The notes under the pieces: model-generated
Seen by the model: the letters and a program-made list of their open reading frames with translations, nothing else
Told to the model about the DNA's origin: nothing
Database searches by the model: none
Program-made: the position numbers and the translations under genes
Assembly: GCA_944321765.1 (NCBI GenBank)
Contig: CALUMQ010000006.1
Span: 1-35,910 of the forward strand
Origin: an uncultured Alistipes sp.
GTDB lineage: Bacteria; Bacteroidota; Bacteroidia; Bacteroidales; Rikenellaceae
Direction of reading: 5' to 3'
DNA: 35,910 nt
Shown here: positions 10,480 to 16,062 of the stretch, in pieces
Numbering within the stretch: the stretch's first letter is position 1
Layout of the letters: the number at the start of each line of letters is the position of its first letter

Positions 10480-11736
10480 CTACTCCGCCTTTTGAAAATC
10501 GACATGGATGGTTTTATCTTCGTAGACCCACTCCTCGGAAACATTCAAACCGGTCGGTTTTGTGTCGTTGTCGAACCAGGCCGTTATCGGGAAGGTCGAA
10601 ACTCCGTCTCCGGGATTGGAGTCGCAGGACAAAAACATCAGTTTCGTACAGATGCTTACATCCAGCGTCGTCAGCTGATTGGAGGAACAGAACAAATAGG
10701 TCAGTTCCGGGTTTTGACTCACATCCAGCGACGCCAACTGATTGTCGTCGCAGGTCAAATACATCAGTTTCATACAACCGCTTACGTCCAGCGTCGTCAA
10801 CGGATTGGAACTGCAGGACAAATTCATCAACTCCAGGTTTTGGCTCACATCCAGCGTTGCCAACTGATTGGAATAGCAGGACAGATCCGCCAGTTTCGAA
10901 TTTCGGCTTACGTCCAGCGTTGTCAATTGATTGGAACTGCAGGACAAATTCATCAGTTCCGGATTTTGGCTCACATCCAAGGTCCTCAACTGATTGGAAT
11001 AACAGGACAAATCATCCAGTATCGGATTTCGGCTCACATCCAGCGACGTCAACTGATTGGAGTGGCAGATCAAAATCATCAAACCCGGGTTTTGACTCAC
11101 ATCCAGCGCCGTCAACTGATTGGAATAGCAGGACAAATAGTACAGTTCCGGATTGTGGCTTACATCCAGCGTCGTCAACCGATTGTCGTCACAATCCAGG
11201 TCGGTCAATTTCGAGTTCCGGCTCACATCCAGCGACGTCAACTGATTGGAGCTGCAGGCCAAACTCGCCAACTCCGGGTTGTGGCTTACATCCAGCGACG
11301 TCAACTGATTGGAATAGCAGGACAAATAGGTCAGCTCCGGGTTGTGGCTCACATCCAACGTCGTCAACCGATTGTCGTCACAATCCAAATCGGTCAATTT
11401 CGAGTTCCGGCTCACATCCAGCGATGTCAATTGATTGAAACTGCAGAACAGCGCCGTCAGCGACTCGAAATGCTCGATGCCTCGCAGGGAGGTCAGGGCG
11501 CCCGGATTGGAATAACTTCCCGAAACATCCAGTTCGGTTATTGCCGCAATATGCTCCATATCATCCGGCGTGATATTTTCCGCATCGGAGACGTAACCTT
11601 TCTCCTGCAATATCCGGGCAAATGCAGGATCGAACATGGATGTAAGCTTATCGCTTTCCGTCGAAGAGGATTCATCCTTATCGCATCCGGAAAAGACAAG
11701 GGCGGCAAGCAAGGTCAGCAGATAAAAACGTTTCAT
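10480..11736 (-). CDS. Leucine-rich-repeat lipoprotein
   Basis: The 418-residue protein starts MKRFYLLTLLAALVFSGC, with the lipobox Cys at residue 18, so it is an exported lipoprotein, probably surface-exposed. After a ~70-residue spacer come 13 consecutive 21-residue leucine-rich repeats of consensus LTxLDVSxNPxLxxLxCxxNQ (residues 103-375), preceded by one divergent unit and followed by a 43-residue cap. This Bacteroidetes-type repeat resembles those of surface adhesins and binding proteins. The ligand is unknown. Residues 103-144 and 166-207 are near copies of each other, a sign of recent internal duplication. The ATG at 11736 is chosen for the signal peptide and the promoter upstream. A longer open frame to 11820 would run through the promoter. 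Confidence 0.9.
   Translation of the reverse strand: MKRFYLLTLLAALVFSGCDKDESSSTESDKLTSMFDPAFARILQEKGYVSDAENITPDDMEHIAAITELDVSGSYSNPGALTSLRGIEHFESLTALFCSFNQLTSLDVSRNSKLTDLDCDDNRLTTLDVSHNPELTYLSCYSNQLTSLDVSHNPELASLACSSNQLTSLDVSRNSKLTDLDCDDNRLTTLDVSHNPELYYLSCYSNQLTALDVSQNPGLMILICHSNQLTSLDVSRNPILDDLSCYSNQLRTLDVSQNPELMNLSCSSNQLTTLDVSRNSKLADLSCYSNQLATLDVSQNLELMNLSCSSNPLTTLDVSGCMKLMYLTCDDNQLASLDVSQNPELTYLFCSSNQLTTLDVSICTKLMFLSCDSNPGDGVSTFPITAWFDNDTKPTGLNVSEEWVYEDKTIHVDFQKAE
10612..11430 (-). repeat. Tandem 63-bp repeat array encoding LRR units
   Basis: Thirteen in-frame 63-bp units encode the 21-residue repeats. Because 63 is divisible by three, every frame on both strands is repetitive, which creates long false open frames on the plus strand. 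Confidence 0.9.
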
Positions 11737-11775
11737 AGTCTTGCTCGTTTGAATTCGTAAATAATCGATCTCTTT

Positions 11776-11807
11776 CAAAGGTACGTGTTTTTTTCGACCG
11801 CGCCAAA
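11776..11807 (-). promoter_or_regulatory. Promoter of the LRR lipoprotein
   Basis: TTTG (11804-11807) and TACCTTTG (11776-11783) on the minus strand are exactly 20 bases apart, a full consensus match. The start codon lies 39 bases further on. Confidence 0.8.
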
Positions 11808-11830
11808 CGATTCCGTCCAAAAGGCATGAA

Positions 11831-11860: not shown

Positions 11861-11878
11861 CCTCACCGACAACTCCCG

Positions 11879-13240
11879 TTAAATCAGTTTCTCCAGCTCG
11901 TTGACCGTCTTCGCAATCTCGGCATCCGTCGGCGTATAGTCCTTCAGTGCCCCGGCCAGGTACTGCTCGTAGGCATAAAGGTCGATGACGCCGTTGCCCG
12001 AAAGGTTGAAGAGAATCGTCTTTTCGCGCCCCTCCTCCTTGGCCTTGAGGGCCTCGCGGATCGTTGCGGCGATGGCATGGGTCGATTCGGGGGCGGGAAT
12101 AATCCCTTCGGTCCGGGCAAAGAGAATTCCCGCGGCAAGCGTCTCGTTCTGCGGAATGGACTGCGCCTCGATGAAGCCGTCCTTGAGCAGCTGGCTGACG
12201 ATCGACCCCGCGCCGTGGTAGCGCAAGCCGCCGGCGTGGATATCCGAGGGCTGGAAGTTGTGCCCCAGCGTGTACATCGGGAGCAGCGGCGTGTAGCCGG
12301 CCACATCGCCGAAATCATACTGGAACTGTCCGCGGGTGAGTTTCGGGCAGCTCTCCGGCTCGACGGCAATCATACGGATCTTCTTGCCCTCGACGAAGTT
12401 CTTGCGCAGGAACGGGAAACTGATGCCCGCGAAGTTGCTGCCTCCGCCGAAGCAGCCGATCACCATGTCGGGTTCGGCATCGGCCATCTCCATCTGCAGA
12501 ACGGCCTCCTGACCGATGATTGTCTGGTGCAGAAGCACGTGGTTCAGCACGCTGCCCAGGCAGTAGCGCGTATCTCCAGGGTGCTGGAGCGCCACCTCGA
12601 CGGCCTCCGAAATGGCCAGTCCGAGGCTGCCCGAACAATGGGGATCGCGCTCAAGAGCCGCACGGCCCGACGCGGTGAGCGTCGAAGGCGAAGCCACACA
12701 TTCGGCACCCCAGGTATTCATCATCAACCGGCGGTAGGGCTTCTGGTCGTAGCTTACCTTGACCATGAAGACCTGCAGATCGATGCCGAAGTGTTTCGCC
12801 GCAAAGGCAATCGAGGCACCCCACTGTCCGGCTCCCGTCTCGGTGGTCAGGTGTTTGATACCCTGCTTGTAGTTGTAGTAGGCTTGCGGAACGGCCGTAT
12901 TGGGTTTGTGCGACCCGGCGGGCGACACGCTCTCGTTCTTGAAGTAGATCTTCGCCGGAGTGTCCAGCGCCTTCTCAAGGCCCGTGGCACGCACCAGCGG
13001 CGTCGGACGCCATATCTTGTAGATCTCCTGCACCTCTTCGGGAATGTCGATAAAGCGTTCGGTCGACATCTCCTGATCGATGAGCTCCTCGGCAAAGATC
13101 GCCGACATCTGCTCCTTGGTGACGGGTTGTTTGGTGGCGGGATTCAGCGGCGGCAGCGGCTTCGTAGGCATGTCGGCCACGATGTTGTACCATTGGGTGG
13201 GCATCTGGGATTCGCTCAGACAGAATTTTTTCGTTTTCAT
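11879..13240 (-). CDS. trpB: Tryptophan synthase beta-like protein, TrpB2 type
   Basis: The 453-residue PLP enzyme makes L-tryptophan from indole and serine. The PLP lysine is Lys112 in [11 protein letters not shown], the catalytic Glu134 is in ETGAGQWG, and the phosphate-binding loop is GGGSN (265-269). The long N-terminal extension (first ~75 residues, [11 protein letters not shown]...) and the overall length distinguish TrpB2 from the ~400-residue TrpB1 that pairs with TrpA. No trpA or other trp gene is adjacent, so it may salvage free indole. The ATG at 13240 is the first good start. The gene stands alone, with its own promoter, a tryptophan-codon leader and a terminator in front, and a terminator behind. 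That arrangement strongly supports a tryptophan-related role. Confidence 0.93.
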
Positions 13241-13276
13241 GGCGTTTGAGTATTTGAGGTTTTTACGGATGACAAA

Positions 13277-13312
13277 GAAAAAGCCCGTTGCTTACTTCGT
13301 AAACAACGGGCT
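13277..13312 (-). terminator. Intrinsic terminator in the trpB2 leader (attenuator)
   Basis: On the minus strand AGCCCGTTG (13304-13312) pairs with CAACGGGCT (13282-13290). Five more inner pairs, one a G-U, close on a GAA loop. The stem is followed by TTTTCTTTG. It lies 41 bases before the trpB2 ATG and 20 bases after the leader-peptide stop. Confidence 0.88.
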
Positions 13313-13379
13313 GTGGCGTAAATCTGTTCGCTTTACCATGCACGCACGCAAAGGCACTCATTGTTCACGAGAGACAATG
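13301..13379 (-). promoter_or_regulatory. Competing leader RNA pairings (antiterminator candidate)
   Basis: Reading the minus-strand RNA, segment 1 is CAUUGU (13379-13374) and can pair with segment 2, ACAAUG (13364-13359). Segment 2 extended, GAACAAUG (13366-13359), can instead pair over eight bases (two G-U) with segment 3, CGUUGUUU (13308-13301), which is the 5' arm of the terminator. Segment 1 begins a few bases after the three Trp codons, so a ribosome stalled there would cover it and free segment 2. Confidence 0.6.
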
Positions 13380-13416
13380 GGCGCCACCACCAGCTATGCA
13401 TGTTCAGCGTATACAT
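13333..13416 (-). CDS. trpL: Tryptophan leader peptide (attenuator peptide) upstream of trpB2
   Basis: This small frame encodes 27 residues from ATG 13416 (MYTLNMHSWWWRPLSLV...), or 22 from the in-frame ATG at 13401. It contains three consecutive Trp codons (13392-13384), and a fourth Trp is the last residue before TAA (13333-13335). Trp is rare, so three in a row in a tiny frame placed between a promoter and a terminator in front of trpB2 is the hallmark of transcription attenuation. When charged tRNA-Trp is scarce the ribosome would stall at WWW and favour the antiterminator. I prefer the 13416 start because A-rich sequence (GAAAAACG) precedes it, as is common for Bacteroidetes starts. The peptide itself probably has no other role. 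Confidence 0.85.
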   Translation of the reverse strand: MYTLNMHSWWWRPLSLVNNECLCVRAW

Positions 13417-13454
13417 CGTTTTTCGAATTTCGGTCGATTTCCGTTTCGTTTCTG

Positions 13455-13486
13455 CAAATATAAAACTTCGGAATCAGTTTTGCAAA
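13455..13486 (-). promoter_or_regulatory. Promoter of the trpL-trpB2 unit
   Basis: On the minus strand TTTG (13483-13486) and TATATTTG (13455-13462) are separated by exactly 20 bases. The transcript would begin about 30 bases before the leader ATG. Confidence 0.8.
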
Positions 13487-13531
13487 TTTTTTACTATGAA
13501 AAATTCGCACCTATTTTTTATAGAGCCAAAA

Positions 13532-13563
13532 TTTCGACGTTTGAGGGAAAATCCCTATCTTTG
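13532..13563 (+). promoter_or_regulatory. Promoter of pheT
   Basis: TTTC (13532-13535), 20 bases, then TATCTTTG (13556-13563). The -7 box is a perfect match and the -33 box has one mismatch. The start codon is 30 bases further on. Confidence 0.6.
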
Positions 13564-13593: not shown

Positions 13594-16062
13594 ATGAATA
13601 TCTCGTACAACTGGCTCAAACGATACCTCGACACCGATCTTTCGGCCGAGAAAATCGCCGACATACTGACCGACATCGGTCTCGAAGTCGAAGGTTTTGA
13701 AAAAATCGAAACCATAAAGGGCGGTTTGCAGGGTGTCGTGGTGGGTCGCGTCGTGACCTGCACGGACCACCCCGACTCGGACCACCTCCACGTGACGACC
13801 GTCGACGTCGGCTCGGGCGATCCCCTTCAGATCGTCTGCGGGGCCCCCAACTGCCGGGCAGGACTCAAGGTCCTCTGCGCCACCATCGGCTCGGTGCTCT
13901 ACCCCAACGGCGGCGACGAGGAGTTCAAGATCAAGCGCTCGAAAATCCGTGGCGTGGAGTCGCTCGGAATGCTCTGCGCGGAGGATGAACTCGGCATCGG
14001 AGCCTCGCACGACGGCATCGTGGAACTTCCGGAGGATGCCCCCGTGGGCATGACCGCCAAGGAGTTCCTGCACATCCAGGACGACTACCTCATCGCAATA
14101 GGACTTACGCCCAACCGTATCGACGCCGCATCACACATCGGCGTGGCCCGCGACCTGGCCGCCTACCTTACCAGCCACGGACACCCCGTGAAGGTGAAGT
14201 GGCCTGATGTGGAGGGCTTTGCCGTGGACAACCACAACCTGGAGGTGAAGATCCGCGTCGAGAATCCCGAGGCGGCACCCCGCTATACGGGCGTCACCGT
14301 CACGGGATGCAAGATCGGCCCCTCGCCCGAGTGGATGCAGAACTGTCTGCGCGCCGCGGGCATCAATCCCAAGAACAACCTCGTCGACATCACGAATTTC
14401 GTGCTCTTCGAACTCGGACAGCCCCTGCACGCCTTCGACGCCGACAAGATCGAAGGTCGTGAGGTCGTTGTGCGCACGTGCGCCGAAGGCACACCCTTCG
14501 TGACGCTCGACGGCGTGGAGCGGAAACTCTCCGACAAGGATCTGATGATCTGTTCGGCCGTGCGTCCGATGTGCATCGCAGGCGTCTTCGGAGGCCTCGA
14601 CTCGGGAATCAGCGATTCGACGGTCAACGTCTTCATCGAAAGCGCCTACTTCAACCCCGTATGGGTGCGCAAGACCGCCAAAAGATTCGGTCTCAACACC
14701 GATTCGTCGTTCCGCTTCGAGCGCGGCGTGGACCCCAACATCCAGGTATATGCCGCCAAGCGTGCCGCCCTGCTGATGAAGGAACTGGCCGGAGGAACCA
14801 TTTCGAGCGATATCACGGATGTCTGCGCCCGGCCGGCCGAGGACTTCGTCTTCGACGCCTCGCTGCCGCGCATCAATGCCCTGATCGGCAAGGAGATTCC
14901 CGAGTCGGTCATTCGCACGATCCTCGGAGCCCTCGAGGTAAAGATCCTCGGGGAGAAGGACGGCGGCGTATGGACCGTGGCCGTACCGCCCTACCGGGTC
15001 GACGTACAGCGGGAGGCCGATCTCGCGGAGGATATTCTCCGCATCTACGGATACAACAACGTCGAGATTCCCGCGCGGGTGCGGTCAACGCTCTCCTACG
15101 CACCGAAACCCGACCGCAACAAACTGGTGAACCTCGCCGCGGATTTCCTCACGGCCAACGGATTCACCGAGATCATGTCGAACTCGCTCACCCGGGCAGC
15201 CTACTACGAAGGGCTGACCTCCTACCCCGCCGAACACTGCGTGCGGATCATCAATCCGCTGAGCGCCGACCTCAACGTCATGCGTCAGACGCTGCTCTTC
15301 AACATGCTCGAAGCCGTGGCGCTGAACGCCAACCGCAAGAACGGGGATCTGAAGCTCTATGAATTCGGCAACTGCTACTTCTACGACGAAGCGAAGCGTC
15401 TGGAGGAGAACCATCTGGCCGCCTACTCCGAGGAGTACCGTCTGGCCATTGCCGTGACGGGCGTCGCCGTGCCGCAGTCGTGGAACGAAAAGCCCCTCAA
15501 GGCATCGTTCTTCACCCTGCGGGCCATTGCCGAGAAACTCCTGCGCCGATTCGGAATCGACATTTATGCCCTCAAGACCGAGACACTGCAGAGTGATCTC
15601 TTCAGCGAGGGGCTCTCGATGGAGCTCAACGGAAAGCAGTTGCTTCAGATCGGCTCCGTGGCAGCGAAGATCCGCCGGGAGCTTGATGTCAAGCAGGAGG
15701 TCTACTTCCTGGAGATGAACTTCGACGCGCTGATGAAGTCGACGAAGAAGCACCGGATCACCGCCGAGGAGCTGTCGAAGTTCCCCGAGGTGAAACGTGA
15801 CCTCGCGCTGCTCGTCGACAAGCAGGTGACCTTCTCCGCGCTGCGGGACGTGGCCTTTGCCGCGGAACGCAAACTGCTGAAGAGTGTCTCGCTCTTCGAC
15901 GTCTACGAGGGCGACAAGCTTCCCGCAGGCAAGAAATCCTATGCCCTGAGTTTCATTCTCGAGGACAAGAGCCGCACGCTCGACGAAAAGAGCATCGAAC
16001 GTGTGATGTCGAACCTCACCCGGCAGTTCGAACAGCATTGCGGGGCCCAGGTGCGCAGTTGA
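13594..16062 (+). CDS. pheT: Phenylalanine--tRNA ligase beta subunit
   Basis: The 822-residue protein is a full-length bacterial PheT. It forms the alpha2-beta2 enzyme with PheS and charges tRNA-Phe. PheS is not in this window. Domains in order are an N-terminal region starting MNISYNWLKRYL; a tRNA-binding OB fold (about 40-150; HPDSDHLHVTTVDVG...QIVCGAPNCR); the B3/B4 editing domain (about 210-375, with PKNNLVDITNFVL and GQPLHAFD); the B5 domain; the catalytic-like core; and the C-terminal ferredoxin-like anticodon-binding domain (about 725-820, FPEVKRDLALLVDK, SYALSFILED). Start and length agree with the family. A promoter precedes it, a terminator follows, and pheS is not adjacent. Confidence 0.97.
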   Translation: MNISYNWLKRYLDTDLSAEKIADILTDIGLEVEGFEKIETIKGGLQGVVVGRVVTCTDHPDSDHLHVTTVDVGSGDPLQIVCGAPNCRAGLKVLCATIGSVLYPNGGDEEFKIKRSKIRGVESLGMLCAEDELGIGASHDGIVELPEDAPVGMTAKEFLHIQDDYLIAIGLTPNRIDAASHIGVARDLAAYLTSHGHPVKVKWPDVEGFAVDNHNLEVKIRVENPEAAPRYTGVTVTGCKIGPSPEWMQNCLRAAGINPKNNLVDITNFVLFELGQPLHAFDADKIEGREVVVRTCAEGTPFVTLDGVERKLSDKDLMICSAVRPMCIAGVFGGLDSGISDSTVNVFIESAYFNPVWVRKTAKRFGLNTDSSFRFERGVDPNIQVYAAKRAALLMKELAGGTISSDITDVCARPAEDFVFDASLPRINALIGKEIPESVIRTILGALEVKILGEKDGGVWTVAVPPYRVDVQREADLAEDILRIYGYNNVEIPARVRSTLSYAPKPDRNKLVNLAADFLTANGFTEIMSNSLTRAAYYEGLTSYPAEHCVRIINPLSADLNVMRQTLLFNMLEAVALNANRKNGDLKLYEFGNCYFYDEAKRLEENHLAAYSEEYRLAIAVTGVAVPQSWNEKPLKASFFTLRAIAEKLLRRFGIDIYALKTETLQSDLFSEGLSMELNGKQLLQIGSVAAKIRRELDVKQEVYFLEMNFDALMKSTKKHRITAEELSKFPEVKRDLALLVDKQVTFSALRDVAFAAERKLLKSVSLFDVYEGDKLPAGKKSYALSFILEDKSRTLDEKSIERVMSNLTRQFEQHCGAQVRS

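Follow-up and report, generated by a model that had tools for sequence, protein, structure and literature searches.

What controls a tryptophan synthase beta chain that stands alone in its genome, and what does that control reveal about the use of the enzyme? The question is raised by a 35,910-nucleotide (nt) stretch of DNA from an uncultured Alistipes sp. (assembly GCA_944321765.1, contig CALUMQ010000006.1, positions 1 to 35,910 of the forward strand; hereafter the window), in which a short leader with three consecutive Trp codons (WWW) lies directly upstream of a gene of this kind, trpB2. On the strength of the comparative sequence analysis described here, we consider it highly probable that the region is a ribosome-mediated tryptophan attenuator placed before a probably monocistronic trpB2 and serving indole salvage. 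The Trp-codon switch indicates what the cell uses trpB2 for, namely tryptophan supply, and the genome context suggests the source, namely imported indole.

Parts of the leader and the proposed switch

The attenuator and trpB2 both lie on the minus strand, and all coordinates are window positions. The parts are as follows.

13455–13486, minus strand: Bacteroidetes-type promoter TTTG-N20-TATATTTG, with TTTG at 13486–13483 and TATATTTG at 13462–13455, read from the sequence
13333–13416, minus strand: leader peptide open reading frame (ORF) MYTLNMHSWWWRPLSLVNNECLCVRAW, 27 codons, from a program-made ORF list
13384–13392, minus strand: Trp-Trp-Trp codons, the proposed stalling (sensor) site, read from the sequence
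13375–13379, minus strand: segment 1, which pairs with segment 2 at 13363–13359 in the minimum-energy fold (protector helix)
13359–13368, minus strand: segment 2, GUGAACAAUG, the 5′ strand of the antiterminator, with its partner at 13308–13299, from covariation
13299–13308, minus strand: segment 3, CGUUGUUUAC, common to antiterminator and terminator, from covariation of both helices
13277–13312, minus strand: intrinsic terminator (segments 3:4) and T-run, with a 14-pair stem at 13312–13282
11879–13240, minus strand: trpB2, for a 453-aa tryptophan synthase beta chain (stand-alone, TrpB2 class), assigned by TIGR01415 and NF009057
11829–11862, minus strand: strong terminator after trpB2, found by scanning, with 15 pairs, 8 of them G-C

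The promoter, the short peptide with three consecutive Trp codons and the terminator with its T-run that the initial annotation had placed upstream of trpB2 are therefore all present. The promoter element was named after what we take to be the Bacteroidetes consensus, and transcription is expected to start near 13450. The leader most likely begins at the first ATG, giving 27 codons, since a related locus (L005) retains this ATG and lacks the second. A fourth Trp codon lies just before the stop, at 13338–13336, and trpB2 itself starts at 13240, downstream of the leader terminator. The fold of the window leader is more stable than that of 200 out of 200 dinucleotide shuffles (z = −4.04). An alternative pairing of eight bases had been described as capable of breaking the terminator stem; such a pairing exists, but it is longer, comprising 10 base pairs (bp) including G-U between 13368–13359 and 13308–13299.

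From these parts, and from the conservation and covariation presented below, we infer how stalling, termination and a response to tryptophan would follow from one another. RNA polymerase would start near 13450, and a ribosome would translate the leader. When charged tRNA-Trp is scarce, this ribosome would stall on the Trp codons and cover segment 1. The footprint of a ribosome reaches about 15 nt beyond its P-site, and stalling at the third Trp codon would place its edge at about 13374, with segment 1 (13379–13375) covered and segment 2 (13368–13359) free. Segments 2 and 3 would then pair, the terminator would be blocked and trpB2 would be transcribed. When tryptophan is plentiful, the ribosome would reach the stop codon and segment 2 would be sequestered again; in relatives whose stop codon lies inside segment 2, the ribosome itself would cover it. 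With segment 2 unavailable, the terminator would form and transcription would end before trpB2. A working attenuator of this type would imply that the ribosome closely trails RNA polymerase in this phylum, and such coupling would begin on an AUG without an evident Shine-Dalgarno sequence.

Conservation and covariation of the leader

GTDB species genomes were scanned once; 374 trpB2 relatives were confirmed and the best 80 of them analysed. Three loci (L007, L047 and L073) had no usable upstream DNA, leaving 77 countable. A leader was scored where at least two consecutive Trp codons in a short ORF were followed by a terminator. Conservation of the Trp codons in orthologues had been set beforehand as the refutation test for the prediction, and tandem Trp codons were found in 51 of the 77 loci. 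One more (L058) carries an interrupted Trp-Ser-Trp and also matches the leader covariance model, bringing the leaders to 52 of 77. Within Alistipes, a genus set of 61 genomes (the window's included) holds trpB2 in 23; the leader lies directly upstream of 22 of these genes and the 23rd is 32 bases from a contig end, a count that is not fully independent, as several of the assemblies also contributed to the leader model.

For peptides and promoters, counts refer to 52 leaders made up of the window and the 51 loci with a Trp run. The run is WWW in 44, WWWW in four and WW in four, and an in-frame ATG precedes it in every case (52/52). The fourth Trp codon before the stop, to which the initial annotation had also drawn attention, is present in the window but not conserved, and its occurrence in 10 of 52 peptides led us to reject a conserved role for it. 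Many relatives have their stop codon within segment 2 (CAA UGA), whereas in the window's clade the frame stays open across these nucleotides and encodes Asn-Asn-Glu; the sequence is preserved although the peptide differs, the pattern expected of an RNA element. Upstream, TAnnTTTG occurs in 49 of 52 leaders compared with 168 of 2600 shuffles, and the full TTTG-N17-23-TAnnTTTG in 25 of 52 compared with 6 of 2600.

The helices were assessed in an alignment, A1, of 45 rows comprising the window and 44 of the 51 tandem-Trp loci. Left out were L006 (near-identical to L004), the divergent L034, L064, L065, L069, L075 and L079, and L058, which has no Trp run; TGGTGG is invariant in A1, the rows having been chosen for it. 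The antiterminator 2:3 (10 bp including G-U) is paired in 95.8% of A1 cells, with 23 double-change cells. None of 500 shuffles reaches its percentage paired, its number of double-change cells or its covariation score, and pairing falls to 34–54% when the partner is slid. Two of the five measures were not unusual: 29 of 500 shuffles were as high in the number of pairs showing a double change (only mildly unusual), and 168 of 500 in further pair types. The terminator 3:4 is paired in 96.5% of cells and has 87 double-change cells, and no shuffle among 500 was as high on either measure. The competing pairings proposed for this leader thus covary in its relatives.

This column-wise count replaced a comparison in which segment 2 was paired with the terminator arm either of the same leader or of a different one. 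The pairing within one leader was better in 1542 of 2636 cases, which gives no discrimination because the core is nearly invariant; with a fixed 30-nt piece, 1003 of 10400 simple shuffles did no worse than the real sequence. Nascent folds were predicted for transcripts in which segment 1 is hidden and the 3′ arm of the terminator is still missing; 50 of 52 leaders then form an antiterminator of 8 bp or longer without interruption, compared with 188 of 2080 folds when segment 2 is shuffled.

Detection of held-out leaders was consistent with these results. Covariance model R2 was built from 27 leaders, none of them belonging to the window's own TrpB2 clade of 22 rows. It scores the window leader at 78.6 bits (E = 4.9e-15, E-values of this model and of R1 below being rough), recovers each of the other 18 held-out leaders and matches none of the 25 leaderless loci at E up to 0.01. 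Across the whole window genome at E up to 1, it matches at full length the window leader alone, and beyond that only the same terminator read on its reverse strand.

Could the hairpin nonetheless be a constitutive terminator and the Trp-rich ORF a product of chance? The leader terminator is indeed very strong by itself, but tandem Trp codons stand in frame in 51 of 77 loci, the alternative helix covaries and held-out leaders are detected. We rejected this explanation on these grounds and regard it as extremely improbable. The conservation of the Trp codons and the covarying antiterminator and terminator instead favour the stalling mechanism that had been suggested, and we predict that the leader is very likely a ribosome-stalling tryptophan attenuator.

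Several findings weigh against this reading of the switch. Comparative support for the protector helix 1:2 appears weak, as 81.0% of its A1 cells are paired, 18 of 500 shuffles are as high, and 62.5% of cells still pair when the strands are slid by +3. According to predicted folds, the finished terminator beats the antiterminator at equilibrium even with a ribosome stalled, and the switch must therefore be under kinetic control. When the ribosome is absent and the 3′ arm is still to be transcribed, the predicted window fold keeps the 1:2 stem while segment 3 pairs with the start-codon region, a pairing that has no use in the simple model. Finally, 25 of the 77 trpB2 loci have no leader, including every Prevotellaceae and Parabacteroides row among the best 80.

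Relation to other tryptophan leaders

Does the window leader belong to a family that is already described? A scan of the whole window with Rfam returned two tRNAs only, with no T-box, riboswitch or other leader at gathering score, and the window leader and twelve loci tested alongside stay below the gathering score of every Rfam model. The enterobacterial trp attenuator model, RF00513, gives 20.4 bits (E = 0.076) on the window leader and 25.9 bits on that of L010, both below its gathering score of 41. Besides this weak alignment, the two have a common plan of tandem-Trp leader peptide, antiterminator 2:3 and terminator 3:4. The enterobacterial element controls a whole trp operon, whereas that of the window would control a lone trpB2.

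The Bacteroid-trp RNA, RF01692, appears in the list of RNAs in Weinberg et al. 2010 (PMC2864571). Like the window element, it comes from Bacteroidetes, combines tandem Trp codons with a terminator and is predicted to regulate tryptophan genes in cis. The window leader might accordingly be an ordinary, far-diverged member of RF01692 in which only the target gene differs. This is a possibility that we hold to be somewhat doubtful. It is favoured by the behaviour of model R1, built from trpB2 leaders with the window included, which also detects the RF01692 loci L082–L085 at 39.5 to 50.4 bits. These are the only hits of RF01692 itself among 101 relatives, and all four lie upstream of trpB1. The RF01692 model (gathering score 49 bits), on the other hand, has no match in 13241–13560 at E up to 10, and seven further trpB2 loci (L005, L010, L031, L034, L053, L079 and L182) likewise give none at E up to 1. 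Judged by eye, the segment following the Trp codons complements the terminator loop and 3′ arm in L082–L085 but the 5′ arm in the window leader, so that the two types differ in the part of the terminator that is competed for. On score, the window leader was rejected as a member of RF01692, of RF00513 and of every other Rfam family.

One trpB2 leader, in a Bacteroidaceae genome (L079:2405-2548), looks by eye like the RF01692 type (UCGUGAG) rather than the AACAAUG type of the window, a likeness that its score does not confirm.

Beyond trpB2, R1 found WWW leaders upstream of trpE in other Bacteroidales (L157 and L176–L180), where the best family of the encoded proteins is TIGR00564 (trpE_most) at 390–436 bits, below the cut-off of 517.7. 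It also found WWW leaders upstream of trpB1 in L164, L173, L174, L175 and L181, in addition to L082–L085. Tryptophan attenuators are therefore common in the order Bacteroidales. Of 27 R1 matches inspected, 14 (L158–L163 and L165–L172) were judged by eye to be chance terminators or coding sequence, with either no Trp run or a TGG run resembling coding sequence. Among the trpB1 leaders, L175 and L181 escaped RF01692, and L173 fell short of its threshold. In the genomes of L176–L180 RF01692 had no match at E up to 0.001 under stricter filters despite their WWW leaders and terminators, so the Rfam model may undercount such attenuators in the order. The leader of trpB2 either forms a separate branch or is a distant sister of the other Bacteroidales trp leaders.

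At L157 (G066:C131:3148-3433, minus strand), two tandem WWW leaders, each with its own terminator, precede a single trpE-like gene, possibly as a double attenuator in series.

The initial annotation knew of no description of such control over a lone TrpB2 in a Bacteroidetes-like genome. Attenuation of this kind was already known in Bacteroidetes, given Bacteroid-trp, and WWW leaders also stand before trpE and trpB1 in relatives; the lone trpB2 as target remains new. A search of mainly open-licence literature, by title and abstract start, found no description of an attenuator on a lone trpB2. As far as we have seen, the target, the sequence family and the link to pathway loss are new, and the mechanism itself is of a known kind.

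Attenuators outside the phylum offer a further comparison. In Corynebacterium diphtheriae, according to the sections of PMC1262725 considered here, attenuators were predicted before trpB1EDGC and trpB2A, so that a second trpB copy also stands behind a candidate tryptophan attenuator. There the copy accompanies trpA in an actinobacterial biosynthetic operon, whereas here trpB2 is alone and trpA is missing.

Genome context and the use of TrpB2

The trpB2 product scores 616.7 bits with TIGR01415 (trpB_rel; cut-off 518.85) and 724.3 bits with NF009057 (cut-off 366), and its closest solved chains are 6hul, 4qys and 6hte. Since the strong terminator at 11862–11829 directly follows the gene, trpB2 is probably transcribed alone. 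A crude neighbour comparison found no conserved downstream partner, the largest cluster comprising 6 of 74 loci, and membership of trpB2 in an operon is thought unlikely on both counts.

Neither TrpA nor indole-3-glycerol phosphate (IGP) synthase was detected in the window genome, which is 88.63% complete, and TrpB2 would for this reason most likely make tryptophan from serine and the indole of the gut community. In the genus set, TrpA and IGP synthase each occur only in G054, where a trp gene cluster of full length stands behind a separate WWW leader (L175) and the trpB2 leader is present as well. More widely, searches for both enzymes covered 50 leader genomes (L006 and L079 left out) and 25 leaderless ones. 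TrpA is above cut-off in six of the 50 leader genomes, with a seventh match below cut-off, and IGP synthase occurs in the same six; the leader genomes without either enzyme include that of Alistipes sp. An66 (L009), a cultured strain. Among the leaderless genomes each is found in 20 of 25, and at least one of the two in 21. With the window's included (76 genomes), 45 of 51 genomes with a leader lack both enzymes and 21 of 25 without a leader have at least one (Fisher p = 8e-10). A Pagel-type likelihood test in our own implementation likewise associates leader and pathway loss (likelihood ratio 15.2, p = 0.004), as a rough estimate.

This distribution supports, short of proof, the role in tryptophan supply or indole salvage that had been put forward for TrpB2, and we infer from it that the enzyme salvages indole subject to feedback by tryptophan. 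Of the 23 genus-set genomes with trpB2, 16 have a tryptophanase-family gene (NF009709), and in strains with both enzymes the switch would additionally keep the two from running as a futile cycle. A broader scenario concerns those members of Alistipes, Odoribacter, Butyricimonas and related groups in which de novo synthesis was lost. Here a distinct attenuator branch may have been kept or gained on the remaining TrpB2, so that indole would be scavenged only when tRNA-Trp is uncharged and a futile cycle with tryptophanase would be avoided where both are present; we see the evidence for this scenario as evenly balanced.

An attenuator could also be real while TrpB2 serves another reaction or substrate, such as O-phosphoserine or an indole derivative, instead of indole salvage. 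O-phosphoserine-dependent TrpB2 enzymes have been described, and NCBI models name the family "TrpB-like PLP enzyme". Control through Trp codons nevertheless implies that tryptophan is the end product, and the product has in common with 6hul a 16-residue stretch and GGGSNF, to which we presumptively assign catalytic roles. Another substrate therefore seems unlikely.

Indole salvage under tryptophan control must in turn be set against several points that count the other way. On the TrpB2 tree, the leader changes at least nine times and the pathway seven, so that the association between leader and pathway loss has few independent changes behind it; shared ancestry inflates this association and weakens it as evidence, and a test on independent pairs had too few pairs to reach significance. 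Besides the 88.63% completeness of the window genome, no completeness is stated for any of the other 75 genomes, many of them metagenome assemblies, and single gene absences are therefore weak evidence. At that same completeness, no tryptophanase (NF009709) was found in the window genome, and indole would therefore have to come from outside.

Two cases among the relatives may be singled out. The leaderless locus L027 keeps a terminator about 150 nt upstream of trpB2, where, judged by eye, Trp-Arg-Arg-Arg takes the place of the Trp run; its genome has TrpA and IGP synthase, and its sensor would be decayed or altered. The sister TrpB2 rows L040 and L041, of which one has a WW leader and the other none, with TrpA and IGP synthase in neither, form a natural pair for leader loss.

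Indole salvage by tryptophan synthase is known from Chlamydia trachomatis, where, in the parts of PMC7755916 relevant here, trpRBA salvages the indole of neighbours under tryptophan-dependent control involving a WWW motif. Unlike in the window, that motif lies in the YtgR repressor precursor, and a cis leader (59 aa, with non-consecutive Trp codons) is only proposed and unvalidated in that account (PMC7755916). Bifidobacterium, likewise a gut bacterium with TrpB-based indole use, converts exogenous indole to tryptophan according to portions of PMC11085991; its TrpB is fused to TrpC, and "attenuat-" is absent from the main text of that paper. The same portions present indole as a gut signal and as the precursor of a uremic toxin (PMC11085991). 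If our interpretation is correct, indole would also be a nutrient that the bacteria studied here may remove under tryptophan control. Incomplete variants of the tryptophan pathway in gut genomes are reported in PMC9026213, with no TrpB-only variant in the parts of it that were examined. The literature search described above found no paper on what stand-alone TrpB2 does in gut Bacteroidales.

As for the neighbours of the attenuator and trpB2, pheT, encoding the phenylalanyl-tRNA synthetase beta chain (TIGR00472, 821.5 bits; cut-off 402.65), lies at 13594–16062 on the plus strand and is divergent from the attenuator. Downstream of trpB2, the minus strand at 10480–11820 encodes a probable lipoprotein composed mostly of leucine-rich repeats of the LTSLDVS type, as judged by eye. 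Also by eye, the plus strand at 3–911 encodes the end of an RHS-repeat-like protein that is cut by the window edge.
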